DNA of 64,000 nt from Halarchaeum rubridurum (lineage in GTDB: Archaea > Halobacteriota > Halobacteria > Halobacteriales > Halobacteriaceae): contig NZ_BMOO01000002.1 in assembly GCF_014647115.1 (NCBI RefSeq), positions 186,001 through 250,000 on the forward strand, in the 5' to 3' direction. This document shows, in pieces, positions 15,682-52,534 of this stretch (position 1 is its first letter; every line of letters begins with the position of its first letter). Made by a program: the position numbers and the translations under genes. The notes beneath the pieces were generated by a model. The model saw only the letters and a program-made list of their open reading frames with translations. It was not told where the DNA came from and did not search any database.

Positions 15682-17262
15682 TCACTCCAGCACGAGGCGC
15701 GCGGGGTCCGCGAGGAGCGTCTGGACGTGGTTGGTGAACTGCGCGGCCTCCGCGCCGTCGACGAGCCGGTGGTCGACGGACATCGAGATGGTCATCGTCT
15801 TGCGCGCGACGACCTCGTCGTCAACGACCCACGGGCGCTTCTTGATCGGCCCCATGGCGAAGATGCCGGCCTCCGGGTAGTTGATGATGGGCGAGGAGTA
15901 CTCGCCGCCGATGACGCCGATGTTCGTGATGGTGAACGTCCCGCCGCGCATCGCCTCGCGCGGGAGCGAGCGCTCGCGCGCCTGCGTCGCCAGCTCGTCG
16001 ATCTCGCGTGCGAGCTCCTTCAGCCCCTTCCGGTCCGCGTGCTTGATGACGGGCACGAGGAGGCCGTCGTCGGTCGCCACCGCGATGCCGATGTTGTACT
16101 CGTCGTGGAGGACGATCTCGCCCGCCTCCTCGTCGAGGCTCGCGTTGAGGTACGGCACCTCCTTGAGCGCCGACGTCACGGCCTTCACGACGAACGGGAG
16201 GTAGGTGAGGTTCACGTCCTCCTCGTCGGCGATCTCCGCGAGCTCCGCGCGGAGGTCGACGAGCCCCGAGGCGTCGAACTCGTCGTGGTGGGTGACGTGC
16301 GGTGCCGTGAACTTCGACTGCGCCATCTGCTCGCCGATGGTCCGCCGGATGCCCCGATAGGGGACGCGCTCGCCGCCGGGCGACGCCGCCGCGCCCGCGT
16401 CGCCGGTGTTCGTGCCCGCGCCCGTCCCGCCGGCCGCCGCGCCGGCGCTCGCGCTCGCACCCCGTTCCGCGCTCGCGCCCGTCTCCGCCGCCGACCCGCC
16501 CGACTCGACGTACGCCTCGACGTCCGCGGGCGTGACGAACGGTTCGCCCTCGCGCTCCTCGCTCGCGGGGACGTCGTTGATGTCGACGCCGCGCTCGCGG
16601 GCGAGCCGTCGCGTCGCCGGCATCGCCAGCGTCCGCTCGCGCTTCGTCCCGCCCGCGCTCTCCACGACGACCGGCTCCGCCTCGCTCGGCGTCGCGTCGG
16701 CACCCGACGCCGGTTCGCTCGCACCCGACTCGGACGCCGATTCGGCCGCCCGCCGGACGTCCGACTCCGTCACGCGCCCGCCCGCGCCGGTGCCCTCGAC
16801 CGTCTCGATGTCGACGTCGAGGTCGCGCGCGAGCGAGCGCGTGCTCGGTGCGGCGAAGACGCGTCCGCCGGGCGCGCCGCCCGCCTCGGACGCCTCCGCG
16901 CCGCCCTCCGTCGCCTCGGCCGTCTCCAGCTCCGCGGATTCGGCCTCGACGGTCCCCGCGTCCACAGGCGTGCTCGACTCGTCCGTCTCCGCCTCGGTCC
17001 CGGCCGGTTCGGCGTCGCTCGCGTCGATCTCGAACGTGGCGATGACGTAGTCGACCGGCACCATCTCGCCCTCCTCGGCGTGGAGTTCGGTCACCGTCCC
17101 GTCGTAGGGCGAGGGGACCTCAACGAGCGCCTTGTCCGTCTCGACCTCCGCGATCACCTGGTCCTGCTCGACGTGATCGCCGGGCGCGACGGCCCACGCC
17201 ACCAGCTCGCCCTCCGCGATACCCTCGCCTAAGTCCGGCAGTTCGAACGATTGCTCGACCAT
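15682..17262 (-). CDS. pdhC: Dihydrolipoamide acyltransferase (E2)
   Basis: 526 residues. Lipoyl domain 1-78 with lipoyl-Lys44 in ETDKALVEV; an acidic Thr/Ser/Glu linker; a first peripheral subunit-binding domain near 130-175 (APSTRSLARDLDVDIETVEG); a second near 212-260 (MPATRRLARERGVDINDVPA); an Ala/Gly/Thr linker; then the acyltransferase core from about 300 (YRGIRRTIGEQMAQSKFTAP) to the catalytic DHRLVDG (His about 498). Two binding domains are more than the usual single one. Acyl-group specificity (pyruvate or branched-chain) is not fixed. Starts 151 bp after E1 beta stop, with its own TATA-like CACTAAAAG (minus, 17286-17294). Confidence 0.94.
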   Translation of the reverse strand: MVEQSFELPDLGEGIAEGELVAWAVAPGDHVEQDQVIAEVETDKALVEVPSPYDGTVTELHAEEGEMVPVDYVIATFEIDASDAEPAGTEAETDESSTPVDAGTVEAESAELETAEATEGGAEASEAGGAPGGRVFAAPSTRSLARDLDVDIETVEGTGAGGRVTESDVRRAAESASESGASEPASGADATPSEAEPVVVESAGGTKRERTLAMPATRRLARERGVDINDVPASEEREGEPFVTPADVEAYVESGGSAAETGASAERGASASAGAAAGGTGAGTNTGDAGAAASPGGERVPYRGIRRTIGEQMAQSKFTAPHVTHHDEFDASGLVDLRAELAEIADEEDVNLTYLPFVVKAVTSALKEVPYLNASLDEEAGEIVLHDEYNIGIAVATDDGLLVPVIKHADRKGLKELAREIDELATQARERSLPREAMRGGTFTITNIGVIGGEYSSPIINYPEAGIFAMGPIKKRPWVVDDEVVARKTMTISMSVDHRLVDGAEAAQFTNHVQTLLADPARLVLE

Positions 17263-32527: not shown

Positions 32528-33277
32528 ATGTCATTGTTGAACTGTAACGGTGTCACGAAACGATTCGGCGGGGTCGTCGCGCTCGACGACGTCTCGTTCG
32601 AGGTCGAACGGGGGGAGACCGTGGGGTTGATCGGGCCGAACGGGGCCGGGAAGTCCACGCTCTTCAAGGTCATCACCGGGTCGCACGCGCCGACGGAGGG
32701 GAGCGTCCACTACGACGGGACGGACATCACGGGGTGGAGCCCGCACGACATCTGTCACGAGGGGCTCGTGAAGACCCACCAGATCGTCCGTCCGTTCGAG
32801 AACCTCTCCATCCACCAGAACGTCGAGGTCGGCGCGGAGTTCGGCGGTCGTCGCCCCGAGAACGTCGAGGAGCGCGCGTACGAGGCCCTGGAGTTCGTCG
32901 GACTCGACGAGCGCGCCCACGAGACGCCGACCGAACTCAGCGTCGGCGCGCTCAAGCGCCTCGAAATCGCGCGCGTGCTGGCGACCGACCCCGGTATCCT
33001 CCTCTTCGACGAGGTGGCCGGCGGGCTCGACCCCGAGGAGACCGAGGAGATCGTCTCGCTCATCGGCGACATCAAAGACCGGGGCAAGACGGTGTTCCTC
33101 ATCGACCACGTGATGCGCGCGCTGATGAACGTCAGCGAGCGCGTCTTCGTCCTCAACAACGGCGAGTTCATCGCCAAGGGGACGCCGGCGGAGATACAGA
33201 ACGACGAGCAGGTTATCGAGGCCTACCTCGGGACGAGCGCGGAGCGCGACGAGGGGCCGACGCGGGGCGAGGCGTAG
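32528..33277 (+). CDS. livG: Branched-chain-type ABC ATPase
   Basis: 249 residues. Walker A GPNGAGKST, LivG-type long insert (HQIVRPFENLSIHQNVEVG), signature LSVGALKRLEIARVLA (first residues of the usual LSGGQ altered to LSVGA), Walker B ILLFDEVAGGLD with Glu, and switch His in FLIDHVM. First gene of a livG-livF-livH-livM operon. The class imports branched-chain amino acids, urea or aromatic acids; the surrounding catabolic genes favour the last. Confidence 0.92.
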   Translation: MSLLNCNGVTKRFGGVVALDDVSFEVERGETVGLIGPNGAGKSTLFKVITGSHAPTEGSVHYDGTDITGWSPHDICHEGLVKTHQIVRPFENLSIHQNVEVGAEFGGRRPENVEERAYEALEFVGLDERAHETPTELSVGALKRLEIARVLATDPGILLFDEVAGGLDPEETEEIVSLIGDIKDRGKTVFLIDHVMRALMNVSERVFVLNNGEFIAKGTPAEIQNDEQVIEAYLGTSAERDEGPTRGEA

Positions 33278-33982
33278 ATGGCGCTCCTCGACGTCCAGGG
33301 CCTCGACGTGGCGTACGGCGACATCCACGTCATCTGGGACGTGGACTTCTCCGTGGACACCGGGGAGACGGTCGCGCTCCTCGGCGCGAACGGCGCGGGG
33401 AAGACGACGATACTCAAGACCATCTGCGGTGTGCTCTCGCCGCTCGACGGCGACGTCGTCTACGAGGGCGAGTCGATAACCGGTATCGCGCCCGAGGAGG
33501 CCGTCAGACGCGGAATCGCACACGTCCCCGAGGGCCGCGAAATCTTCGCGGACAGCACGGTCAAGCGCAACCTCCAGCTCGGGGCGTACACGAACCGCGG
33601 GGCGATGTCGGAGAACTTACAGCGGGTCTACGAAATCTTCCCGCGACTGGAGGAGCGCGCGGGCCAGCGCGCCGGCACGCTCAGCGGGGGCGAACAGCAG
33701 ATGCTCGCCATCGGGCGCGGCCTGATGAGCGAACCCGACCTCCTCCTCCTCGACGAGGCGAGCCTCGGGCTCGCGCCCGTCCTCGTCGACGACGTCTTCG
33801 AGGCCATCCAGCGGATCAACGACCAGGGGACGACGGTCTTCCTCGTCGAACAGGACATCCACAACGCCCTGCGCGTCGCCGACCGGGGGTACGTCCTCAA
33901 GAGCGGCCGGATCGAACTCTCCGGGAGCGCCGAGGAGCTCGCGGGCGACGAGCGCGTCGAGGCCTCCTACCTCGGTGAGTGA
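33278..33982 (+). CDS. livF: Branched-chain-type ABC ATPase
   Basis: 234 residues. Walker A GANGAGKTT, signature LSGGEQQMLAIGRGL, Walker B LLLLDEASLGLAP, switch position FLVEQD (LivF-type Gln). Starts directly after livG. A 140-bp gap with no recognisable gene separates it from livH. Confidence 0.93.
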   Translation: MALLDVQGLDVAYGDIHVIWDVDFSVDTGETVALLGANGAGKTTILKTICGVLSPLDGDVVYEGESITGIAPEEAVRRGIAHVPEGREIFADSTVKRNLQLGAYTNRGAMSENLQRVYEIFPRLEERAGQRAGTLSGGEQQMLAIGRGLMSEPDLLLLDEASLGLAPVLVDDVFEAIQRINDQGTTVFLVEQDIHNALRVADRGYVLKSGRIELSGSAEELAGDERVEASYLGE

Positions 33983-34122
33983 CGCCGTGAGCGCACCGTA
34001 CACCGACGCACGACACACGCCGCGCACGCGACGCACGGTCGCGTCGCCCGCGCTTCGGGCGTCCGCGACCGACCCGCAGTCCCGCCGCACCGCCACGCAG
34101 ACACCAACCACCCAACGAAACC

Positions 34123-35004
34123 ATGGTATCAATCGACCTCCTCGCACAGACAGTCAGTAACGGCATCCTCCTCGGCGGGATCTACGCGCTCGCCGCGCTG
34201 GGGCTCTCGCTCATCTTCGGGATCATGGACGTGGTCAACCTCGCGCACGGCCACCTGCTGATGCTCGGAGGGTACGTCGCCATCGTGCTGTTCACGATGG
34301 CCGGCCTCTCCCCGCTCGTCGGGATGCTCGCGGCGATGCTCGTGCTGTTCGTCATCGGCATCGTCCTCCAGCGCGCCCTGCTCGAACGCGTCGTCGACGA
34401 GGGGATCGAACAGCCCATCCTCGTGCTCTTCGGGGTCGCGCTCGTCTTCCAGAACCTCGGGCAGCACTTCCTCGGCTCGGACGCCCAGTCCACCGAGCTG
34501 ACGCTCGGTCTCGGCGGGCTGAACCTCGGGTCCGTGCTGCTCTCCCCGTCGCGGACGGTGACGTTCGTCATCGCCGTCCTGCTCGTCGTGCTGACGTGGC
34601 TGTTCCTCGAATACACCTCGACGGGCCACGCGATCCGCGCGACGTCGCAGAACCGGGCGGCCGCGCGGTACGTCGGCATCGACACCGACCGGATCTACAT
34701 GCTGACGATGGGGATCGGCGCGGCGCTGGCCGGCGCGGCCGGCTCGCTGCTCTCGATGCTGTTCCCGATCGACCCCTACGTCGGCTGGTCGTACCTCCTG
34801 AAGTCCTTCGCCGTGGTCGTCCTCGGCGGCGTCGGGAGCATCATCGGGACGCTCGTCGGCGGCGTCATCCTCGGCACGGCCGAGAACGTCACCGCGCTGT
34901 TCCTCGGCGGGAGCTACCGCGACGTGATGACGTTCACGATCTTCCTCCTCGTCCTCCTGCTGAAACCCGAGGGGCTCTTCGGTACCGGGGGTGGTGGCGA
35001 ATGA
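34123..35004 (+). CDS. livH: Branched-chain-type ABC permease
   Basis: 293 residues, about eight hydrophobic helices. LivH features: NGILLGGIYALAALGLSLIFGIMDVVNLAHG at the N-terminus and RAAARYVGIDTDRIYM in the coupling region. Overlaps livM by 4 bases. Confidence 0.93.
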   Translation: MVSIDLLAQTVSNGILLGGIYALAALGLSLIFGIMDVVNLAHGHLLMLGGYVAIVLFTMAGLSPLVGMLAAMLVLFVIGIVLQRALLERVVDEGIEQPILVLFGVALVFQNLGQHFLGSDAQSTELTLGLGGLNLGSVLLSPSRTVTFVIAVLLVVLTWLFLEYTSTGHAIRATSQNRAAARYVGIDTDRIYMLTMGIGAALAGAAGSLLSMLFPIDPYVGWSYLLKSFAVVVLGGVGSIIGTLVGGVILGTAENVTALFLGGSYRDVMTFTIFLLVLLLKPEGLFGTGGGGE

Positions 35005-36002
35005 ACACGGATCGCTTCATGCTCGGCGTGCCGTCCTCGAAGCGGACCGTGGCCGCCTCGCTCGTCGTGCTCGCGGCGATGCTCGTCGTCCCCTTCGTGA
35101 CGACGTCGTACTACACGGGGCTGGCGATGACCGCGCTCGTCTTCCTGATGCTCGGCGTCTCGTGGAACCTCCTCGCGGGCTACGCGGGGCAGATCTCGCT
35201 CGGGCACGCGGCCTTCTTCGGCCTCGGGGCGTACGTCGCCGCGTGGCTCACGACGCCGTCGGCCGCGGGCCTCCCCGCGATCCCCTTCCCGCTCTCGCAC
35301 CCGGTCGTCGCGCTCGTCCTCGGCGGCGTCGGCGCAGCGCTCGTCGCACTCGTGACCGGGCCCGTGATGTTCCGCCTGCGCGGACACTACTTCGCCATCG
35401 GGACGCTCGCGCTCGCGGCGATCATCCGGCTCATCCTCACGGACCAGCGCTCGATCAGCGGCGGGTCGACCGGCTACTACCTCAACGCGGGGATGGGCGA
35501 GATCCCGACGTACCTCCTCACGGTCGTCGTCGCCGCGCTCGCCACAATCGGCGTCTATCTCGTGGTGAACAGCCGCCTCGGTCTCGGGATGCGCGCGATC
35601 CACGACGACGAGACCGCCGCGAGCGGCCTCGGCGTCGACCCCCTGCGCTACAAGATGTACGCCTTCCTCATCTCCGCGTTCGTCGCGGGGCTCGCGGGGG
35701 CGGCGTACGCGCTGAACTCCCTCTACATCAACCCGACGTCGACGCTCGCGGTGACGTGGACGGTCGACACGCTCGTCATCGTCATCCTCGGCGGCATGGG
35801 GACGGTCGCCGGCCCGCTGTTCGGGACGGTGATCTTCATGATCATCGACAACGGGCTGGCGAGCGTGCTCGGCGGCCTGGCGACGACCGTCGAGGGCATC
35901 ATCATCATCCTCGTGGTCATCTTCCTCCCGAACGGCATCTACGGCTACCTCAAGTCGTACGTCGCACAGCGCCGGGAGGGCGACACCGCCACGAGTAGCT
36001 GA
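35001..36002 (+). CDS. livM: Branched-chain-type ABC permease
   Basis: 333 residues, about nine helices. LivM features: GVSWNLLAGYAGQISLGHAAFFGLGAY near residues 50-75 and GMRAIHDDETAASGLGVDPLRYK as the coupling loop. ATG at 35001 overlaps the livH TGA. End of the operon; the likely binding protein is at 47158-48435. Confidence 0.93.
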   Translation: MNTDRFMLGVPSSKRTVAASLVVLAAMLVVPFVTTSYYTGLAMTALVFLMLGVSWNLLAGYAGQISLGHAAFFGLGAYVAAWLTTPSAAGLPAIPFPLSHPVVALVLGGVGAALVALVTGPVMFRLRGHYFAIGTLALAAIIRLILTDQRSISGGSTGYYLNAGMGEIPTYLLTVVVAALATIGVYLVVNSRLGLGMRAIHDDETAASGLGVDPLRYKMYAFLISAFVAGLAGAAYALNSLYINPTSTLAVTWTVDTLVIVILGGMGTVAGPLFGTVIFMIIDNGLASVLGGLATTVEGIIIILVVIFLPNGIYGYLKSYVAQRREGDTATSS

Positions 36003-36104: not shown

Positions 36105-36123
36105 CGTTTTGTACGTGAAAACG
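36105..36123 (+). promoter_or_regulatory. 19-bp palindromic operator, copy 1
   Basis: CGTTTTGTACGTGAAAACG: six-base arms CGTTTT/AAAACG around seven bases. Exact reverse complement of copy 2 at 36248-36266. Confidence 0.65.
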
Positions 36124-36206
36124 TATTGGGTCAACGTGCCGGCCGCCGGAGGAAGGAGGATGTGGATCGGCCGAACGACGGTCGAGTCGCGGCACCGACG
36201 ACCTCG

Positions 36207-36230
36207 TTTTACACGCGTATCGGCGTAATC
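36207..36230 (+). promoter_or_regulatory. IclR-associated motif, copy 2
   Basis: Begins TTTTACAC (36207-36214), TAT-CG at 36218-36222, ends GTAATC (36225-36230). 20/24 identical to copy 1 at 12854-12877. Confidence 0.6.
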
Positions 36231-36247
36231 GTTCTCGGAGCGCAATC

Positions 36248-36266
36248 CGTTTTCACGTACAAAACG
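36248..36266 (+). promoter_or_regulatory. 19-bp palindromic operator, copy 2
   Basis: CGTTTTCACGTACAAAACG, 58-76 bases before GTG 36324. Related to copy 3 upstream of the IclR gene at 37176. Confidence 0.65.
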
Positions 36267-36323
36267 ACCGGGGCGCGCCCGCGACCACAAACGTCTTTGC
36301 GGGCGGCGGGTCTCTGATAGATC

Positions 36324-37109
36324 GTGACACTCGACGACCGCACCATCGACGACATCGCGGAGTCGCTGTACGAGGCGTACCGGAGCGGCGAGCCGGTACC
36401 GAAGCTGACCGACGAGTACGACTTCGACGTCTCCGACGCCTACGAGATCCAGTCGCGCGTCATCGACGACCACGTCGCGGACGGCGCGAGCGTGGTCGGC
36501 CACAAGGTCGGCCTCACGAGCGAGGGCATCCAGACCCAGCTCGGCGTCGACGAACCCGACTTCGGGCGGCTGCTCGACACGATGTTCGTCGAGGAGGGGA
36601 GCGTCCCCGCCGGCGACCTCATCGCGCCGCGCGTCGAGCCCGAAGTCGGCTTCGTCATGGCGGAGACGCTGGAGCCGCCCGTGACGTACCTCGACGTGCT
36701 GGAGGCGACCCGCGGCGTCCTCCCCGTCCTGGAGATCATCGACAGCCGCGTGCGCGACTGGGACATCGACATCGAGGACACGGTCGCCGACAACGCCTCC
36801 TCGGCGCTCTACCTCACGGGCGAGACGCTGACGCCCGTCGACGGCCTCGACCTCTCGCTGGAGGGCGTCAAGCTCTACCGGAACGGCACCGTCGCGGACG
36901 CGGGCGTCGGGAGCGCCGTCCTCGGCCACCCCGCGCGCGCCGTCGCGTGGCTGGCGAACACCCTCGACGAGATGGACCAGCGGATCGAAGCGGGGAACCT
37001 CGTGCTCAGCGGCTCACTCACGCCCGCCACCGACATCGCGGCCGGCGACGTCCTCACCGCGGAGTTCACCTCCATCGGCTCCGTGACGACGCGCATCGGC
37101 GAGGAGTAA
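36324..37109 (+). CDS. 2-oxopent-4-enoate hydratase / 4-oxalocrotonate decarboxylase family (A)
   Basis: 261 residues, MhpD/DmpE-DmpH/XylI-XylJ family. Diagnostic features: VVGHKVGLTS (metal/substrate Lys), PRVEPEVGFVMA (acidic metal ligands), and HPARAVAWLANTLDEMDQRIEAGNLVLSGSLTPA. Family members either add water to 2-oxopent-4-enoate or decarboxylate 4-oxalocrotonate; sequence alone does not say which. A paralog at 37951 probably does the other step. GTG start; expression probably controlled from the operator cluster at 36105-36266. Confidence 0.88.
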   Translation: MTLDDRTIDDIAESLYEAYRSGEPVPKLTDEYDFDVSDAYEIQSRVIDDHVADGASVVGHKVGLTSEGIQTQLGVDEPDFGRLLDTMFVEEGSVPAGDLIAPRVEPEVGFVMAETLEPPVTYLDVLEATRGVLPVLEIIDSRVRDWDIDIEDTVADNASSALYLTGETLTPVDGLDLSLEGVKLYRNGTVADAGVGSAVLGHPARAVAWLANTLDEMDQRIEAGNLVLSGSLTPATDIAAGDVLTAEFTSIGSVTTRIGEE

Positions 37110-37123
37110 GCACGAGCGCGGAG

Positions 37124-37142
37124 TGTTTTCACATCGAAAACA
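37124..37142 (+). promoter_or_regulatory. 19-bp palindromic operator, copy 3
   Basis: TGTTTTCACATCGAAAACA: same six-base arm, seven-base spacer architecture as the copies at 36105 and 36248. It abuts the TATA (CTATTTA, 37145-37151) of the IclR gene starting at 37176, so binding would block or aid transcription factor recruitment. Confidence 0.7.
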
Positions 37143-37175
37143 ACCTATTTACGCGCGGGGCGTCTGGGGTCCGGT

Positions 37176-37946
37176 ATGGCGAAGGAAGCGAACCACCCCG
37201 TCCGGACGACCGAGAAGTCGCTGGCGCTGATCGAGCGGTTGCGCGAGGCGGACGGCGCGCGGATCCGCGACCTCGTCGGCGTCGCGGAGCTGAGCAAGGG
37301 CGCGGTGCACAACCACCTGAGCACCCTGCGCGAGCACGGCTACGTCACGAAGGAGGGCGAGGAGTACCGCTTGAGCCTCCAGTTCCTGACGCTCGGCGGG
37401 TACACACGGGGCCGGACGCCGCTCTACCGCTACGGGCGCTCGAAGGCCGACCAGCTCGCCGCCGACACGGGGATGTTGACGAACCTCGTCACGGAGGAGA
37501 ACGGCCGCGGCGTCTACCTCTACCAGGCCCGCGGCGACTACGCCGTCAACCTCGACACGCACGTCGGCTACCGCATCCGCCTGCACTACACGGGCGTCGG
37601 GAAGGCGATCCTCGCGTACCTCGACCCCGAGCGCGTCGACGAAATCGTCGACGAGTGGGGGCTTCCGATGGAGACGGAGAACACCATCACGGACCGGGGG
37701 GAACTCCACGCCGAACTCGACCGCATCCGCGCGCGCGGGTACGCGACCGACCACGAGGAGCGCACCGAGGGGTTGGCGTGCATCGCCGCGCCGATCCGCC
37801 TCGACGACGAGATTCTCGGCGCGATCAGCATCTCCGCACCGACCCAGCGACTCGGAAACGAGGGGTTCGACGAGGAGATAGTCGGGGAGGTCGAGAGCAC
37901 CGCGAACGAACTCGCGCTCGACCTCAAATACCGCTACGACGGCTGA
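37176..37946 (+). CDS. IclR family regulator (second of three)
   Basis: 256 residues. HTH at about 15-70 (RTTEKSLALIERLREADGAR; LSKGAVHNHLSTLREHGYV), C-terminal ligand domain (HYTGVGKAILAYLDPERVDE; RARGYATDHEERTEGLACIAAPI; GAISISAPTQRL). Leaderless start: TATA CTATTTA is 25-31 bases before ATG. The palindrome directly upstream is also present twice before the hydratase gene, so this protein is the natural candidate autoregulator and pathway regulator. Convergent with the second hydratase gene (4-bp gap). Confidence 0.92.
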   Translation: MAKEANHPVRTTEKSLALIERLREADGARIRDLVGVAELSKGAVHNHLSTLREHGYVTKEGEEYRLSLQFLTLGGYTRGRTPLYRYGRSKADQLAADTGMLTNLVTEENGRGVYLYQARGDYAVNLDTHVGYRIRLHYTGVGKAILAYLDPERVDEIVDEWGLPMETENTITDRGELHAELDRIRARGYATDHEERTEGLACIAAPIRLDDEILGAISISAPTQRLGNEGFDEEIVGEVESTANELALDLKYRYDG

Positions 37947-37950
37947 GTCG

Positions 37951-38724
37951 TTACTCGGCGCGGACGGAGATGGAGCCGATGTTGGCGAACTCGACCTCGT
38001 AGACGTCGCCGGGCTCGATGTCGATGGCGGCGGGGATACCGCCCGTCATGATGAGCTCGCCGGCTTCGAGTTTCTCGCCGCGGTCGGCGAGGCGGTTGAC
38101 GAGCCACGCGACGGCGCGCGCGGGGTTGCCCATGATGTCGCCGCCGATGCCCGTCGATTCGAGCTCGCCGTTGACGGAGACGGCGATGCTCTCCATCACG
38201 AGGTCGACCTCGGAGGGGTCCTTCATCGACTCGCCGAGGATGACGCCGCCGGCGGAGGTGAGGTCGGCGATGACGTCCTGCGCGGACGGAATCGCCCATC
38301 CCGCAAAGCGGCTCTCGAGAATCTCGACGACGGGGACGACCGCGTCCGTGGCCGTGACGACGTCGAGGGGCGTGACGGGCGCTTCGAGGTCCTCGCCGAG
38401 GACGAGGCCGATCTCGGCCTCGATGCGCGGCGCGATCATCTCGTCGACCTGAACGGGACCTTCGAGGAGGGTCTCCTCGACGACGGGCGCGAAGATGGGC
38501 TCGGGGATGCCGAGTTGCTCCTGTTTCGCCTCGCTCACGAGGCCGAGCTTGTGGCCGAGCGTGCCGCCATCGCTGATTCGCTCGAAGACGCGCTCCTGGA
38601 CCTCGTAGGCCTCCTCGGTGGTGAACTCCGTCTCGTCGCTGAGGGGCTCGATGGGGTCTTTCGTGTCGTACGCCTCGTAGAGTGTGTCGGCGAGCTCGTC
38701 GAGCTCCGACTGGCTGAGAGCCAT
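37951..38724 (-). CDS. 2-oxopent-4-enoate hydratase / 4-oxalocrotonate decarboxylase family (B)
   Basis: 257 residues, same family as 36324-37109 but well diverged: GTLGHKLGLVSEAKQ, PRIEAEIGLVLGE, NPARAVAWLVNRLADRGEKLEAG, MTGGIPAAIDI. Having two family members fits a pathway needing both 4-oxalocrotonate decarboxylase and 2-oxopent-4-enoate hydratase. Divergent from the aldehyde dehydrogenase gene (110 bp between starts); a TATA-like ATTAAGTA lies on the minus strand near 38744-38752. Confidence 0.87.
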   Translation of the reverse strand: MALSQSELDELADTLYEAYDTKDPIEPLSDETEFTTEEAYEVQERVFERISDGGTLGHKLGLVSEAKQEQLGIPEPIFAPVVEETLLEGPVQVDEMIAPRIEAEIGLVLGEDLEAPVTPLDVVTATDAVVPVVEILESRFAGWAIPSAQDVIADLTSAGGVILGESMKDPSEVDLVMESIAVSVNGELESTGIGGDIMGNPARAVAWLVNRLADRGEKLEAGELIMTGGIPAAIDIEPGDVYEVEFANIGSISVRAE

Positions 38725-38833: not shown

Positions 38834-40330
38834 ATGAGTGACGCAGCCTCGACCGTGGAGGGAAGCGAGATCGCACTGGACGCCGACTGGAACGCCGCCT
38901 ACATCGACGGTGAGTGGCGACGGCTGGAGGGGCGCGAGCGCATCGACGTGACCAACCCCTCGACCGGCGAGGTCATCACGCAGGTCCCCGCGGCCTCGCG
39001 CGACGACGTCGACGAGGCGTTCGCGGCCGCGAAGGAAGCGCAGGTCGAGTGGGAGGACACCTCCCTCGAAGCGCGCGCGTCGGTCGTCCGCAACGTCGCC
39101 AAGCTCCTCGAGGAGTACGAGGACGAGGTCCGCGAGATTCTCGCCGCCGAGGGCGGCAGCGCGAAGTCCAAGCAGGACATCGAGTGGGGCGGCTCGGTCT
39201 CCTTCGGCTACGACGCCGCGCAGTACGCGTATCGCGCCGACGGCCGCCACGCGCAGTCCCAGATTCCCGGCAAGGAGAACATCGTCGAGCGAAAGCCCGT
39301 CGGCGTCGTCGGCGTCATCTCGCCGTGGAACGTCCCGCTGAAGCTCTCGTTCCGCGCGGTCGCGCCCGCCATCGCCACCGGGAACAGCGTCGTCTTGAAG
39401 CCCGCCGAGGACACGTCCATCTCCGGCGGCCTGCTCCTCGCGCGCCTCTTCGAGGAGGCCGGCCTCCCCGACGGCGTCCTGAACGTCGTCCCGGGCGAGG
39501 GCGCGACCGCCGGCGACCAGGCGGCCTCCCACCCCGACTGCGACGTCATGGCGTTCACCGGCTCGACGCGGGCCGGCCGTATCGTCGGGAAGAACGTCGT
39601 CGATCACTTCGGCTTCCCCGCGCTCGAACTCGGCGGGAACAACCCCCACGTCGTCCTCGAAGACGCCGACCTCGACAAGGCCGTGGACGCCGGGACCTTC
39701 GGTTCCTTCTGGAACCAGGGGCAGGTCTGCATCTCCATCAACCGCCACATCGTCCACGAGGACGTCTACGACGAGTACGCGGAGCGCCTCGCGGAGCGCG
39801 CGAAGGAGCTGAAGGTCGGGAATCCCGTGGGCGACGACGACGTCGTCGTGGGCCCGATCATCAACGAGAGCCAGCGCGACCAGATGATGGAGTACGTCGA
39901 GGAGACCGTCGAGGCCGGCGGCGAGGTCCTCGCCGGCGGCGAGGCCGACGGCCTGTTCGTCGAGCCGACCGTCATCACGAACGTCACGAACGACATGGCG
40001 GCGGCGTGCAACGAGCACTTCGGCCCCATCGTCCCCGTCATCCCCTTCAGCGACGACGAGGAAGCCGTCGAAATCGCCAACGACACCGAGTACGGCCTCG
40101 CCGGCTCGGTCCACTCGGGCGACCTCGGCCGCGCGCGCGACGTCGCCGACCAGATCGACGTCGGGATGATGCACGTGAACGACCAGACGGTCAACGTCGA
40201 GCCCCACATGCCCTTCGGCGGCATGAAGGAGTCCGGCATCGGCCGCTACAACGGCGAGTACATCATCGACGAGTTCACCGAGGTCAAGTGGACGTCGGTC
40301 CAGCGCGAGGACCGCGGCTACCCGTTCTAA
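38834..40330 (+). CDS. Aldehyde dehydrogenase, probably 2-hydroxymuconic semialdehyde or aromatic aldehyde
   Basis: 498 residues, NAD(P)-dependent ALDH. Asn166 in SPWNVPL, Glu265 in LELGGNNPH, catalytic Cys299 in NQGQVCISI, and C-terminal HMPFGGMKESGIGRYNGEYI. Next to meta-cleavage genes it fits oxidation of 2-hydroxymuconic semialdehyde to 2-hydroxymuconate (4-oxalocrotonate enol), but the sequence also resembles benzaldehyde/vanillin dehydrogenases, so an aromatic aldehyde is the alternative. Confidence 0.9.
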   Translation: MSDAASTVEGSEIALDADWNAAYIDGEWRRLEGRERIDVTNPSTGEVITQVPAASRDDVDEAFAAAKEAQVEWEDTSLEARASVVRNVAKLLEEYEDEVREILAAEGGSAKSKQDIEWGGSVSFGYDAAQYAYRADGRHAQSQIPGKENIVERKPVGVVGVISPWNVPLKLSFRAVAPAIATGNSVVLKPAEDTSISGGLLLARLFEEAGLPDGVLNVVPGEGATAGDQAASHPDCDVMAFTGSTRAGRIVGKNVVDHFGFPALELGGNNPHVVLEDADLDKAVDAGTFGSFWNQGQVCISINRHIVHEDVYDEYAERLAERAKELKVGNPVGDDDVVVGPIINESQRDQMMEYVEETVEAGGEVLAGGEADGLFVEPTVITNVTNDMAAACNEHFGPIVPVIPFSDDEEAVEIANDTEYGLAGSVHSGDLGRARDVADQIDVGMMHVNDQTVNVEPHMPFGGMKESGIGRYNGEYIIDEFTEVKWTSVQREDRGYPF

Positions 40331-40572: not shown

Positions 40573-41514
40573 ATGACCGTAGACGCGGCTATCGTCGGGC
40601 CCGGGAACATCGGGACCGACCTCATGTACAAGATATTGGACCGGGGGGAGCGCGTCAACCTCCAGCGGATGATCGGCATCTTCCCCGTGGAGGAGTCGGA
40701 CGGGCTCCAGGCCGCCGTCGACGAGGGCATCGACGTCGGGACGGAGGGCATCGACAGCGTCCGGGAGCACGCCGACGAGTTCGACGTCGTCTTCGAGGCG
40801 ACGAGCGCCGGCGTCCACGAGCAGAACGCGCCGGTGTACGAGGAACTCGACCTCTTCGCCATCGACCTCACGCCCGCCGCCGTCGGCCCCTACACGGTGC
40901 CGGTCGTGAACGTCGAGGACGTCCTCGGCGAGACGAACAACATCAACATGGTCACCTGCGGCGGGCAGGCGACCATCCCGATGGTACACGCCGTCGATCG
41001 CGTCGCGGACGTCGAGTACGCCGAGATGGTCTCGCACATCGCCTCGAAGTCCGCCGGCCCCGGCACGCGGCAGAACATCGATAAGTTCACGCAGACGACC
41101 GCCGCCGGCCTCGAAGAGGTCGGCGGTGCCGACGACGGGAAGGCGATCATCACGCTCAACCCCGCCGAACCACCGATCATGATGCGCAACACCGTCCACA
41201 CCCAGGTCACCGACAGCGTCGACGTCGCGGAAGTGCGGGACTCCGTCGAGGACATCGCCGCGGAGATACAGTCCTACGTCCCCGGCTACGAGGTCACGCT
41301 CGAACCGACCGTCAAGGACCAGGACGACGTCGGCTTCGACCTCGGCGACACCGTCATCCTCACGACGCAACTCGAAGTCGAGGGCGAGGGCCAACACCTC
41401 CCGCCGTACGCGGGCAACCTCGACATCATGACGAGCGCGGCGCTCGGCGCGGCCGAGCGGGTCGCCGAGCAGTGGGAGACCGAGGCGGCCGTCGGGGGTG
41501 GGCAGGATGACTAA
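40573..41514 (+). CDS. mhpF: Acetaldehyde dehydrogenase (acylating)
   Basis: 313 residues, MhpF/DmpF/BphJ family. NAD motif AAIVGPGNIGTDLMYKIL; catalytic Cys129 in NMVTCGGQATIPMVHA; ASKSAGPGTRQNIDKFT and NTVHTQV conserved. Converts acetaldehyde plus CoA to acetyl-CoA and in bacteria receives acetaldehyde through a channel from the aldolase encoded next. ATG chosen at leaderless spacing from the TATA in the 40539 repeat. Overlaps the aldolase start by 8 bases. Confidence 0.95.
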   Translation: MTVDAAIVGPGNIGTDLMYKILDRGERVNLQRMIGIFPVEESDGLQAAVDEGIDVGTEGIDSVREHADEFDVVFEATSAGVHEQNAPVYEELDLFAIDLTPAAVGPYTVPVVNVEDVLGETNNINMVTCGGQATIPMVHAVDRVADVEYAEMVSHIASKSAGPGTRQNIDKFTQTTAAGLEEVGGADDGKAIITLNPAEPPIMMRNTVHTQVTDSVDVAEVRDSVEDIAAEIQSYVPGYEVTLEPTVKDQDDVGFDLGDTVILTTQLEVEGEGQHLPPYAGNLDIMTSAALGAAERVAEQWETEAAVGGGQDD

Positions 41515-42541
41515 CTCGCCGCGCGTCGTCGACATGACGCTGCGCGACGGGATGCACGCCGTCGACCACCAGTTCACGCCCGACCAGATGGCGGAGATCG
41601 CGGGCGCGCTCGACGCCGCCGACATGGACGTCGTCGAGGTCTCGCACGGCGACGGGATGGGCGGCTCCTCTATCAACTACGGGATGGCCGCGGCCTCCAC
41701 CGAGGAGTACCTCGAAGCCGTCGCCCCCCAGCTCAGCGACACCGAACTCTCCGTCCTCCTCCTCCCCGGCATCGGCACCGTCGAGGAACTCGACATGGCG
41801 GCCGACCACGGCGCGGACATCTGCCGGATCGCCACGCACGCCACCGAGGCCGACATCTCGCAGGACCACTTCGAGTACGTCAAAGAGCGCGGTCTGGAGG
41901 CCAACGGCCTGCTGATGCTCTCGCACATGGCGACGCCGGAGACGCTCTTAGAGCAGGCCCAGCTCATGGAGGAGTACGGCGCGGACGCCGTCTACCTCAT
42001 GGACTCCGCCGGGGCGCTCCTCCCGGGGGACGTGCGCGAGCGCGTCAGCCTGCTCGTCGACGGCCTCGACATCGACGTGGGCTTCCACGCGCACAACAAC
42101 CTCGGGCTCGCCGTCGGCAACACCCTCGCCGCGCTCGACGAGGGCGCGGTCACCGTCGACGGCTGTCTGCGCGGCCTCGGCGCGGGGTCGGGCAACACCC
42201 AGATGGAGGTGCTCGTCGGCGCGCTCGACCGGGCCGGCTACGACGTCAGCCCGGACCTCTACGGCACGATGGACGCCGCCGAAGAGGTCCTGCTGCCGAT
42301 GCTCGACGACGACACGATGCCCGAGCTCGACAACGACTCGCTGATGCTCGGCTACGCGGGCGTCTACTCCTCGTTCCTCCGGCACGCGCGCCGCGAGGGG
42401 AAGCGCTACGGCGTCGACCCGCGCGACATCCTCGTCGAACTCGGCGAGATGGAGGTCGTCGGCGGCCAGGAGGACCTCATCACGGACGTCGCGGAGCGAC
42501 TCGCGGAAGAACAGGGGAACGCCGTCGAAGCCGACGACTGA
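41507..42541 (+). CDS. mhpE: 4-hydroxy-2-oxovalerate aldolase
   Basis: 344 residues, DmpG/MhpE type of the HMGL-like TIM barrel. DMTLRDGMHAVDHQF holds the metal/substrate Arg-Asp-His, VEVSHGDGMGGSSINYG, GFHAHNNLGLAVGNTLAA the His ligands, and GLGAGSGNTQMEVLV. The C-terminal part includes the interface for MhpF. Cleaves 4-hydroxy-2-oxovalerate to pyruvate and acetaldehyde. Overlaps mhpF. Confidence 0.95.
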   Translation: MTNSPRVVDMTLRDGMHAVDHQFTPDQMAEIAGALDAADMDVVEVSHGDGMGGSSINYGMAAASTEEYLEAVAPQLSDTELSVLLLPGIGTVEELDMAADHGADICRIATHATEADISQDHFEYVKERGLEANGLLMLSHMATPETLLEQAQLMEEYGADAVYLMDSAGALLPGDVRERVSLLVDGLDIDVGFHAHNNLGLAVGNTLAALDEGAVTVDGCLRGLGAGSGNTQMEVLVGALDRAGYDVSPDLYGTMDAAEEVLLPMLDDDTMPELDNDSLMLGYAGVYSSFLRHARREGKRYGVDPRDILVELGEMEVVGGQEDLITDVAERLAEEQGNAVEADD

Positions 42542-42551
42542 GGCGAGCGCC

Positions 42552-42944
42552 TCAGCCGTCGAACGCGTCGTCGTCGATGAGTTCGATGCCGTAGCCGTTC
42601 GGGTCCTCGATGAAGGCGATGCGCGCGCCCGCGCCCTCGGAGTCGAGCGGGCCGCGCACGTGCGTACAGCCCGCCTCCTCGACGAGGTGCTCGACGGTCG
42701 CGTCGACGTCGTCGACGCCGAAGGCGAGGTGGTCGAGCGCGGTCGGCTCGATGGGTTCGTCGTTGTCGTGGTCGGGATGGTACTTGAACTGGAGGACGAC
42801 GCCGTTGTCGCCTTCGAGGTAGACGTTCGTCGCGCCGTCGCCGCCCTCGAACTCGGTGAGCTTCGTCAGGCCGATCTCGGTCTCGTAGAACTCGAGGGTC
42901 GATTCGAGGTCCGACACCCACAGGGCGCTGTGTAACACGTCCAT
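42552..42944 (-). CDS. VOC/glyoxalase family protein
   Basis: 130 residues from ATG 42944, one vicinal-oxygen-chelate module pair. Metal ligands of glyoxalase I type: His5 (VLHSALWVSD), Glu in VVLQFKYHPDH region, His in LDHLAFGVDD and Glu in GYGIELIDD. Could be a glyoxalase I-like lyase detoxifying methylglyoxal, or a dioxygenase accessory. Its TATA (minus GATTTATCA, 42968-42976) gives a leaderless start. Divergent from the dioxygenase unit. Confidence 0.83.
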   Translation of the reverse strand: MDVLHSALWVSDLESTLEFYETEIGLTKLTEFEGGDGATNVYLEGDNGVVLQFKYHPDHDNDEPIEPTALDHLAFGVDDVDATVEHLVEEAGCTHVRGPLDSEGAGARIAFIEDPNGYGIELIDDDAFDG

Positions 42945-43048: not shown

Positions 43049-43126
43049 ATGACCACGGGTACGGCGAAAGCCACGTCCACGACCAGCGGGAGGAACACGC
43101 GGCCGCACCGGGAGGGAGACGAATGA
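43049..43126 (+). CDS. 25-residue leader ORF coupled to the dioxygenase
   Basis: ATG 43049 is at leaderless distance from a strong TATA box, and its TGA (43124-43126) overlaps the dioxygenase ATG (43123) as ATGA. The product is Thr/Ser/Arg-rich (begins MTTGTAKATSTTSGR) and hydrophilic. It could be a leader peptide that controls dioxygenase translation by coupling, or a small protein of its own. No homology is recognised. Confidence 0.5.
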   Translation: MTTGTAKATSTTSGRNTRPHREGDE

Positions 43127-44082
43127 GCCGGTGGGAGTCGCCCATCGCCAAGCTCGGCCACGTGGCGACGCACACGACGGACCTCGATGAGTCGATCTGG
43201 TTCTTCCGCGACGTGCTCGGACTCAAGCTCACGGAGCGCGAGGACGGCGTCGCGTACTTCCGCGGACTGCGCGACTGGGAACACCACACGCTCGCCGTCA
43301 TCGACTCCGGGCAGACCGGCGTCGACCACATCGCCTTCCGCACGAAGACGCCGGAGGCCGTCGACGACCTCGCGGAGTCCTTCGAGGCGAACGGCGACGA
43401 CGTGACGTACGTCGAGGCCGGCGAGGAGACGGGGCAGGGCGAGGCGATCCGCGTCGAGAAGTTCGGCCACCCCTTCGAGTTCTACTACGACGTCGAGAAG
43501 CCGCCCGCGCCCGAGGGCGAGCGCTCCCGCCTGAAGAACCGCGTCTACAGCGAGGCCTCGGGCAACCGCATCGCCCCGCGACGCATCGACCACGCGCACG
43601 TGCAGGACTCCGTCTCGCCCGCGCACGCCGACTGGCTGCAGGACGACCTCGGCTTCCAGCTCAACGAGAAGTACCTCACCGACGACGACGAGACGTGGGG
43701 CTGGTGGTTCTCCGTCACGCCGCTCCCCCACGACTTCGCCATCCACCGCCTGGAGGCGGGTGCAGAGCCGATGTTCGACCACCTCTCCTACCACCTCGAC
43801 AGCCTCAACGACCTCTGGGAGGCCGGGAAGGTGCTCGCCGAACACGGTATCGAGCCGGACGCGTGGCCGGGCAAGCACGCGATCACGAGCGCGGACTACC
43901 TCTACGTCACCGACCCCGCGAGCGGGCTCTGCATCGAGTTCTTCGCCGGGCCGGGCTACCTCAACTTCGAGCCCGACTGGGACCCCATCGAGTGGCACGA
44001 GTCCGAAATCGGCGGCGAGACGAGCCACCAGTTCATCGGCGAGGGCCCCGGCTGGGACGGGCTCGCGTACCCCGACGAGTAG
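43123..44082 (+). CDS. Extradiol ring-cleavage dioxygenase (catechol 2,3-dioxygenase-like)
   Basis: 319 residues, two VOC modules (about 1-125 and 150-280). The iron triad fits His157 (IDHAHV), His220 (FDHLSYH) and Glu272 (CIEFFAGPG), the type I extradiol arrangement, with His203/His208 and Tyr259/Tyr261 nearby as possible active-site acid/base. Cleaves a catechol next to the hydroxyl pair, giving a 2-hydroxymuconic semialdehyde, which the ALDH, decarboxylase, hydratase and aldolase of this cluster could process. Exact catechol unknown. Translated from an ATGA overlap with a 25-codon leader. Confidence 0.88.
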   Translation: MSRWESPIAKLGHVATHTTDLDESIWFFRDVLGLKLTEREDGVAYFRGLRDWEHHTLAVIDSGQTGVDHIAFRTKTPEAVDDLAESFEANGDDVTYVEAGEETGQGEAIRVEKFGHPFEFYYDVEKPPAPEGERSRLKNRVYSEASGNRIAPRRIDHAHVQDSVSPAHADWLQDDLGFQLNEKYLTDDDETWGWWFSVTPLPHDFAIHRLEAGAEPMFDHLSYHLDSLNDLWEAGKVLAEHGIEPDAWPGKHAITSADYLYVTDPASGLCIEFFAGPGYLNFEPDWDPIEWHESEIGGETSHQFIGEGPGWDGLAYPDE

Positions 44083-44199: not shown

Positions 44200-45171
44200 A
44201 TGCCGGAGATAATCGACGGGTACACCCACGTGCTGACTGAGGAGTTCTTCGACACGATCACCGAGGAGTTCGGCTTCCAGGGCCTCGATGGCCGCCCCGA
44301 GTTCCTCTGGGACATCGAGCAGCGCAAGGTCGACATGGCCGATTACGGCGTCGACAAGCAGGTCATCACGCTCGCGCTCCCGACGATGTTCCAGGGGATG
44401 GAGCACGACCTCGCGCTGGAGATAACGAAGCTCGCCAACGACGAGATTCGACGACTCGCCGACGAGCACGAGGAGTTCATCCCCGTCGGCACGATTCCGA
44501 AGGTCAGCGAGGAGTTCATGGCGGAGTTCGAGCGCTGCGTCGAGGACCTCGGGATGGTCGGCATCCAGATGTTCTCGAACATCGACGGCCGGCCGCTCGA
44601 CGACCCCGAGTTTCGACCGCTCTTCGAGCGCGCGGCCGCGACGGACACGCCGCTCTGGATGCACCCCCAGCTCTGGGACTGGTACGACTGGGCCTCCGAG
44701 TACATGGAGCACCGGCTCTTCGGCTGGCCGTTCGACACGACGCTCGCGCTCTCGCGGCTCGTCTTCGGCGGCGTGATGGAGGAGTTCCCGTCCCTCGACC
44801 TCGTCTCGCATCACGGCGGCGGGATGGTCCCCTTCTACGGCGAGCGCATCGCCATGTTCTACCGACAGCGCCAGAACTACCCGGAGAACTACGCGGGCTT
44901 CCACGAGAACGCGGCCGAGCTCTCGAAGCCCGCCGAGGAGTACTTCGAGCGCTTCCACGCCGACACCGCGGTGTCGGGCTCCGCGCCGGCGCTCGACTGC
45001 GCGTCCTCCTTCTTCGGCTCCGAGAACGTGATATTCGGAACCGACTACCCGTTCAGCCCCGAGCGCGGCCGCGAGACGGTCGAGCTCACCATCGAGGCCG
45101 TCGAGGACATGCGCCTCGACGGGGACGCGCGCGAGGACGTCTACGCGGGGAACCTCCGCGACCTCATCTGA
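44200..45171 (+). CDS. Amidohydrolase-superfamily probable decarboxylase (ACMSD-like)
   Basis: 323 residues. Same superfamily as 19711-20799. N-terminal IIDGYTHVLT in place of DxHxH; WMHPQLWDWYDWASEYM with His near residue 153; VSHHGGGMVPFYGERI near 207 (the ACMSD-type HxGG); IFGTDYPFSPERG near 286 with the conserved Asp. ACMSD-like enzymes decarboxylate 2-amino-3-carboxymuconate semialdehyde, and relatives decarboxylate hydroxybenzoates. Located straight after the dioxygenase (117-bp gap), so it may form the catechol or act on a carboxylated ring-cleavage product. Confidence 0.85.
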   Translation: MPEIIDGYTHVLTEEFFDTITEEFGFQGLDGRPEFLWDIEQRKVDMADYGVDKQVITLALPTMFQGMEHDLALEITKLANDEIRRLADEHEEFIPVGTIPKVSEEFMAEFERCVEDLGMVGIQMFSNIDGRPLDDPEFRPLFERAAATDTPLWMHPQLWDWYDWASEYMEHRLFGWPFDTTLALSRLVFGGVMEEFPSLDLVSHHGGGMVPFYGERIAMFYRQRQNYPENYAGFHENAAELSKPAEEYFERFHADTAVSGSAPALDCASSFFGSENVIFGTDYPFSPERGRETVELTIEAVEDMRLDGDAREDVYAGNLRDLI

Positions 45172-51642: not shown

Positions 51643-52410
51643 CTACTGGTAGGCGAGGTTGACCTCGACGTCGTCCGTCGCGGTGAGCAGGCGCTCCGCG
51701 AGGTCGGCCTCGCGGTCGTCGCGGGCGAGTCGGCGGGCGGCCCCGGCGACGGCGAGCGCACCGCGGACGGCCCCGTCGTGACGAACCGGGGCGCCGATGG
51801 CGTGGATGCCGTGGAGGTCCTCGCTGCGGTTGACGGCGTAGCCGCGTTCGCGGATGCGGTCGAGTTCGGCGCGCAGTTCCCCGCGGTCCGTGACGGTGTT
51901 CTCGGTGCGCGCCGGGAGGCCGTGAGCGTCGAGTATCCGCTCGACCTCGTCGTCGGGGAGGTGCGCGAGTATCGCCTTCCCGCCGGAGTTGACGTGGAGG
52001 TGGCGCCACGTCCCGACGATGGCCTCGACGCTGACGCCCGCGTCGCCCCGGGAGCCGTAGAGGTACATCGCGCGGCCGTTCTCCTCGACGATGAGCCACG
52101 CCATCTCGCCGGTCTCGGCGGCGAGGTCGTCGACGGGGTCCTTGGCCGCGTGGTAGATGTCGTAGCGGTCGCGGGCGTACTCGCCGGCGCGGAAGAACTC
52201 CAGGCCGACGTGGTACGTCCCGTCGCGGTTGACCGCGTAGCCGTGTTCGACCATCGTCCGGAGGTGCTTGTGGACGCTGCTCTTCGCCAACCCGAGCCCC
52301 GCCGCGAGTTCCGTCACGCCGGCACCGTCGCGCTCCCGAAGTTGTTCTATGATGGCGAACAGCGTCTCGTCCGACCCGACCGTCGCGCCGTCGGTTCCGT
52401 TCCGAGCCAT
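51643..52410 (-). CDS. IclR family regulator (third of three)
   Basis: 255 residues. HTH at about 15-65 (SDETLFAIIEQLRERDGAGV; LAKSSVHKHLRTMVEHGYAV), effector domain (HVNSGGKAILAHLPDDEVER; RERGYAVNRSEDLHGIHAIGAPV; GALAVAGAARRL). Divergent from the CoA ligase gene and upstream of the zinc ribbon and gentisate dioxygenase, so it probably controls the gentisate branch. Copy 3 of the IclR-associated motif lies 125 bp upstream. Confidence 0.92.
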   Translation of the reverse strand: MARNGTDGATVGSDETLFAIIEQLRERDGAGVTELAAGLGLAKSSVHKHLRTMVEHGYAVNRDGTYHVGLEFFRAGEYARDRYDIYHAAKDPVDDLAAETGEMAWLIVEENGRAMYLYGSRGDAGVSVEAIVGTWRHLHVNSGGKAILAHLPDDEVERILDAHGLPARTENTVTDRGELRAELDRIRERGYAVNRSEDLHGIHAIGAPVRHDGAVRGALAVAGAARRLARDDREADLAERLLTATDDVEVNLAYQ

Positions 52411-52534
52411 ATCGAATTCAGGTACGAGCGGCTACTTAGGCCCTTCGTCGGTGTGTCCACAGCGTGTTCTCCAGGAGCGAACAGATTTTCTCGACCGTGT
52501 GACGACGCCCGGACGGACGGTGAATCGGACACGC

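Follow-up and report, generated by a model that had tools for sequence, protein, structure and literature searches.

Predicted operators of an IclR-family regulator in a haloarchaeal gene cluster for aromatic meta-cleavage

Three palindromes in the window (the whole stretch of 64,000 nucleotides of Halarchaeum rubridurum DNA analysed here) are, with a probability of about 0.87, operators belonging to the IclR-family regulator whose gene lies at 37176-37946. Judged from their sequence and placement, they would mediate autoregulation of the regulator gene, iclR, and most likely activation of the hydratase gene hydA. The system is a known type of gene switch, well conserved and otherwise ordinary. 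From the analysis of 20 loci, both the operator and the regulon of a haloarchaeal regulator for aromatic ring cleavage can be clearly predicted.

Results

Three palindromes upstream of hydA and iclR

A sequence-only reading of the window had described three palindromes with arms GTTTT/AAAAC and a 7-base spacer, two of them before a hydratase gene and the third abutting the TATA element of an iclR gene. We confirmed both the palindromes and their placement in the sequence (Table 1). Site 2 is the exact reverse complement of site 1, and its centre is located 67 bp ahead of the GTG start of hydA. Site 3 is followed within a few bases by the TATA-like CTATTTA, which lies 24-30 bp before the iclR ATG. 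In the window sites strict symmetry is confined to two 6-bp arms, the 7-bp centre being asymmetric.

Table 1. Features of the window and additional palindromes in related loci (L numbers denote loci of relatives).
Feature	Position	Strand	Comment
liv-type ABC transporter genes	32528-36002		
Operator 1 (predicted)	36105-36123	n/a	CGTTTTGTACGTGAAAACG; distal, upstream of hydA
Operator 2 (predicted)	36248-36266	n/a	CGTTTTCACGTACAAAACG; proximal, upstream of hydA
hydA, FAA-hydrolase-fold 2-oxopent-4-enoate hydratase/oxalocrotonate decarboxylase homologue	36324-37109	+	predicted target
Operator 3 (predicted)	37124-37142	n/a	TGTTTTCACATCGAAAACA; iclR promoter, against TATA-like CTATTTA
TATA-like element CTATTTA of iclR	37146-37152	+	seen in sequence; same layout in relatives
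iclR, IclR-family regulator (HTH_IclR + IclR_C)	37176-37946	+	predicted to bind all three sites
hydB, second hydratase/decarboxylase homologue	37951-38724	-	convergent with iclR; no operator
Aldehyde dehydrogenase (hydroxymuconic-semialdehyde-type)	38834-40330	+	no operator detected
Acetaldehyde dehydrogenase (acylating)	40576-41514	+	above equivalog cut-off
4-hydroxy-2-oxovalerate aldolase	41510-42541	+	above equivalog cut-off
VOC protein	42552-42935	-	
Extradiol (catechol 2,3-type) dioxygenase	43123-44082	+	
Amidohydro_2 protein, related to 2-amino-3-carboxymuconate-6-semialdehyde decarboxylases (ACMSD-like)	44200-45171	+	
Extra sites, part 1	L082:9498, L083:8311, L084:10656, L086:9290 and 9365, L088:9455, L089:12722		
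Extra sites, part 2	L090:9544 and 9619, L091:10070, L115:8424, L116:8448, L117:8395, L118:8262, L119:8616		

The pattern GTTTT-N7-AAAAC occurred 3 times in the window, compared to 0 occurrences expected from 100 dinucleotide shuffles. A search of the entire genome, as proposed in the sequence-only reading, returned these 3 matches and none outside the window, with 0 matches for the reversed-pattern control. Note that the genome-wide counts are pattern searches over 2,813,544 bp (99.9% complete). Allowing two mismatches gave 126 matches vs 89 in the control, mostly noise. When the window was scanned with a profile of the motif, the three sites scored 27.6-31.7 bits and the next best match only 7.3 bits. 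The liv promoter contains a weak match (32492, GTTTATACCGGGGAAAC), which was dropped as an operator because the TATA-like element within it probably accounts for its conservation.

From the exact-match sites of relatives we built the refined motif GTTTTS-N5-SAAAAC, or GTTTT(C>G)N5(G>C)AAAAC. G or C occupies positions 6 and 12 in nearly every site, although the search pattern left both free; window site 1 has G at both positions and window site 2 has C at both.

The gene cluster and its regulator

The genes between 36324 and 45171 encode meta-cleavage of an aromatic compound. hydA, with its GTG start at 36324, scores below curated cut-offs and was assigned as a 2-oxopent-4-enoate hydratase/4-oxalocrotonate decarboxylase homologue. 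ACMSD-like decarboxylases belong to the protocatechuate 2,3-cleavage pathway. In Paenibacillus, protocatechuate 2,3-cleavage is the function of the pra genes (PMC12455638). The cluster resembles this pathway, here in an archaeon, and our guess from the analogy is that protocatechuate may be its substrate.

The window IclR protein scored 37.4 bits with PF09339 (cut-off 22) and 126.9 bits with PF01614 (cut-off 24), placing it in the IclR family. It is not a member of the PcaR/PcaU/PobR group (TIGR02431, its second-best NCBIfam match), reaching 138.4 bits vs a cut-off of 284.75, nor of BhcR (NF045644), with 150.8 bits vs an equivalog cut-off of 350. Because it missed the cut-offs of these and the other named IclR models, we filed it as an IclR-family regulator without a subfamily. 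The genome encodes 11 proteins with an IclR_C domain, including two more in the window.

One further palindrome was observed in the window. GTTCTCCAGGAGCGAAC (52466-52482), of the form GTTC-N9-GAAC, agrees with the IclR group 1 consensus at its outer bases. It sits between a divergent IclR gene (51643-52410, minus strand) and an AMP-binding acyl-CoA ligase gene (52730, plus strand), and is a candidate operator of this second IclR regulator.

Conservation of the palindromes across haloarchaeal loci

In a sample of haloarchaeal genomes, the IclR orthologs were 69-96% identical to the window protein, plus one at 51%, and were nearly always accompanied by the same pathway genes. The recognition helix region HNHLSTLR was largely retained among them. 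The closest relative found was Halarchaeum nitratireducens JCM 16331, with an IclR protein 96% identical.

Besides the window genome, 19 related genomes have the palindrome next to this regulator gene. In all 20 loci, representing several genera, it lies upstream of iclR at 28-34 bp from the start codon (for L087 measured to three bases short of the ATG) and is directly followed by a TATA-like element. The iclR-promoter site has 0-2 mismatches over the ten arm positions in these loci, 9 of which come from one genus and are not independent. Six loci (L114-L119), retrieved only once the pattern was known, served as a test set; each contained the site. Autoregulation by the adjacent IclR protein, as proposed in the sequence-only reading, is thus strongly supported by the presence of the site at 20/20 iclR promoters.

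The same reading had predicted control of the pathway. All 10 loci with hydA beside iclR carry a site at most 250 bp upstream of hydA, some with one mismatch, and for the hydA promoter the prediction is therefore strongly supported. No site was found in this genome at the promoters of the liv transporter, hydB/aldehyde dehydrogenase, acetaldehyde dehydrogenase/aldolase or extradiol dioxygenase, so that direct control of the entire pathway is not demonstrated. In genus g35, hydA is relocated away from iclR and is without a site; in three loci of this genus (L091, L115 and L119), the acetaldehyde dehydrogenase gene is preceded at 80-100 bp by a site with one mismatch.

Clusters in genomes without an iclR ortholog (G319, G027 and G056) contained zero sites in 20 kb with one mismatch allowed, and kept the hydA TATA-like element (CTATTTG). 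The motif was likewise absent from same-genus genomes without the cluster. Across 14 ortholog-bearing genomes, 30 of the 37 genome-wide matches to GTTTTSNNNNNSAAAAC fell within cluster loci, the cluster windows of ~20 kb amounting to ~0.6% of the DNA of these genomes. Seven ortholog-less genomes yielded one match in total, and the reversed-pattern control 2 matches over 21 genomes. Shuffling the loci of relatives gave 0.00-0.08 expected exact matches, vs up to 4 observed per locus. The off-cluster matches in G107, G216, G255, G319, G345 and G348 were rejected as chance-like (intragenic, between convergent genes, or by unrelated-looking genes). What genome comparison shows is that the sites exist, that they are exclusive to this system, that their place at iclR is fixed and that they are linked with the ortholog.

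Between Halarchaeum nitratireducens and the window, no arm position differs (30/30 identical), compared to 11/21 identical in the spacers and 212/352 (~60%) in the other intergenic columns. This pattern suggests the footprint of a protein-binding site.

G093 has two sites ahead of an acyl-CoA ligase gene near the cluster, and G353 one site just downstream of a ligase gene resembling it. In L082, operator matches at 16977 and 17148 precede a minus-strand acyl-CoA ligase gene that probably starts near 16847 and adjoins a second IclR gene, which suggests that the regulon may extend to the CoA ligase in that genome. Separately, G129 contains a second pathway cluster (L085) of lower GC, in which the IclR protein is 59% identical and the iclR promoter is without the palindrome; two one-mismatch sites are present upstream of hydA and of the acetaldehyde dehydrogenase gene.

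Predicted mechanism and alternative explanations

In the model that we prefer, an IclR dimer would bind each GTTTTS-N5-SAAAAC site. At the iclR promoter, the 3' arm of the operator ends just before the TATA-like element, at the expected TFB (BRE) position, so that autoregulation would be expected, most likely repression. The dimer would lie against the TATA/BRE region and most likely hinder TFB/TBP. An operator abutting the TATA element is compatible with activation of iclR too. The hydA operator is found upstream of the TATA-like element by roughly 30-60 bp, varying between genera among the genomes compared, and this variable distance fits an activator better than a blocker. Here the dimer, positioned upstream of the TATA element, would most likely activate once an aromatic pathway metabolite is bound. 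Together with the activator status of the named haloarchaeal IclR regulators, the operator placements led us to prefer hydA activation combined with iclR autorepression. We infer physical binding, the effector, activation of hydA and repression of iclR from sequence.

Alternatively, the regulator may only repress, keeping hydA and iclR shut off until it binds an inducer, as classical IclR repressors do. Overlap of the iclR operator with the expected BRE position would be in line with such a mode of action, and the IclR family includes repressors, activators and dual regulators (PMC8222616). However, an operator placed tens of bp above the hydA TATA element at variable distance is poor for steric blocking, and the known haloarchaeal IclR regulators are activators (PMC11519228). 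We therefore regard repression alone as rather unlikely. This estimate bears on whether control is positive or negative and leaves the identity of the sites untouched, and hence is not exclusive of the core of the best explanation. That the sites are owned by a different transcription factor, either another of the 11 IclR proteins or a global regulator, appears improbable. The number of IclR_C proteins, two more of them in the window, would allow for such a factor, but a global regulator is excluded by the finding of three sites in the entire genome. Moreover, the motif tracks the iclR ortholog, being missing from clusters without it and from cluster-less genomes of the same genus, and the iclR gene itself always bears a site.

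An action of the palindromes in RNA, as hairpins or terminators, is very improbable. Site 3 does fold slightly better than shuffles (z -2.3), but folding of sites 1 and 2 is non-significant (z -1.2 and -0.8, site 1 by a different pairing), and the identical bases at positions 6 and 12 of these two sites cannot pair. Furthermore, site 3 precedes the iclR TATA-like element and hence the expected start of the transcript. Chance similarity of A/T-rich promoter patches, the null hypothesis, has nothing in its favour. It is practically negligible in light of 3 sites vs 0 expected in the window, the excess over shuffles in relatives, and a position kept in 20/20 loci.

Spacing of the hydA sites

The sequence-only reading had raised looping between the two hydA sites. 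These are 143 bp apart, or 13.6 turns at 10.5 bp per turn, which would place the dimers on opposite faces; in the sister species the spacing is 142 bp (13.5 turns). A helical repeat of 11.0 bp per turn would give 13.0 turns, and phase alone thus cannot exclude looping. In other genera the upstream sites are spaced by 26-27 bp or about 160-220 bp, or there is a single site. Looping across the 143 bp therefore found no positive support, the spacing being kept only within Halarchaeum.

Additional sites in the convergent region

A further site was found past the 3' end of iclR or, in g35, past that of the amidohydrolase gene after iclR, in 13 of the 20 loci (Table 1); in 4 of these 13 it matches only with one mismatch. 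The 3' end of hydB is at most about 230 bp from the extra site in most cases, with other sequence intervening in G345. In several genomes with hydA beside iclR, iclR is enclosed between the extra sites and the neighbouring operators, which are about 0.84-0.93 kb apart. Halarchaeum, where hardly any DNA separates iclR from hydB, is without the extra site.

No gene start or recognisable promoter accounts for the extra sites in the 13 loci, and a simple promoter model does not explain them. They might be auxiliary operators, looping with the iclR and hydA operators or acting as roadblocks to convergent transcription, a proposal that we consider doubtful. If true, such an auxiliary-operator architecture would be one not usually described for archaeal catabolic regulators.

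Comparison with known IclR systems

Bacterial IclR operators fall into two groups (Suvorova and Gelfand 2021, PMC8222616). The norm in the family is autoregulation plus control of one or two adjacent operons, with activators, repressors and dual regulators all occurring (PMC8222616). The ends of the GTT-11-AAC subgroup, a 17-bp palindrome, are present in each of the three window sites and in the exactly matching sites of relatives. The fifth-base C/G of group 1 (GKTYC...GRAMC) was not found in them; the three window sites and the sites of relatives have T/A. As the fifth-base C/G is a consensus preference, we filed the window sites as a variant that keeps the GTT-11-AAC ends.

Like the operators of this subgroup (PMC8222616), the haloarchaeal sites are odd-length 17-bp palindromes placed upstream of the regulator gene and of an adjacent catabolic operon. 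In contrast to the bacterial subgroup with its group consensus GKTYC/GRAMC (PMC8222616), their arms are GTTTT/AAAAC, and paired operators are 142-143, 75 or 26-27 bp apart instead of the usual tandem spacing of 18-22 bp. Whereas the promoters of the subgroup are bacterial, those of the haloarchaeal system are archaeal TATA/BRE promoters. These results suggest that the bacterial GTT-11-AAC class of IclR operators is also present with archaeal TATA/BRE promoters. A genome-wide regulon of three sites would offer a clean test system for a bacterial-type regulator acting on the archaeal basal transcription machinery. Neither the motif nor a haloarchaeal aromatic IclR operator was found in the openly readable literature.

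With PcaU, PobR and PcaR of bacteria, the window regulator shares the IclR fold and targets in aromatic ring cleavage. In contrast to these proteins, its cluster encodes extradiol (meta) cleavage and not the beta-ketoadipate pathway, and no three-box operator (with an extra direct repeat), as in PcaU/PobR/PcaR, was seen at the window regulator. XacR, GacR, RhcR and MscR are haloarchaeal IclR regulators that act as activators (PMC11519228). Like them, the window protein is a haloarchaeal IclR regulator of catabolic genes. They differ in pathway: the four known regulators serve sugar or sugar-alcohol catabolism, whereas that of the window belongs to an aromatic meta-cleavage cluster.
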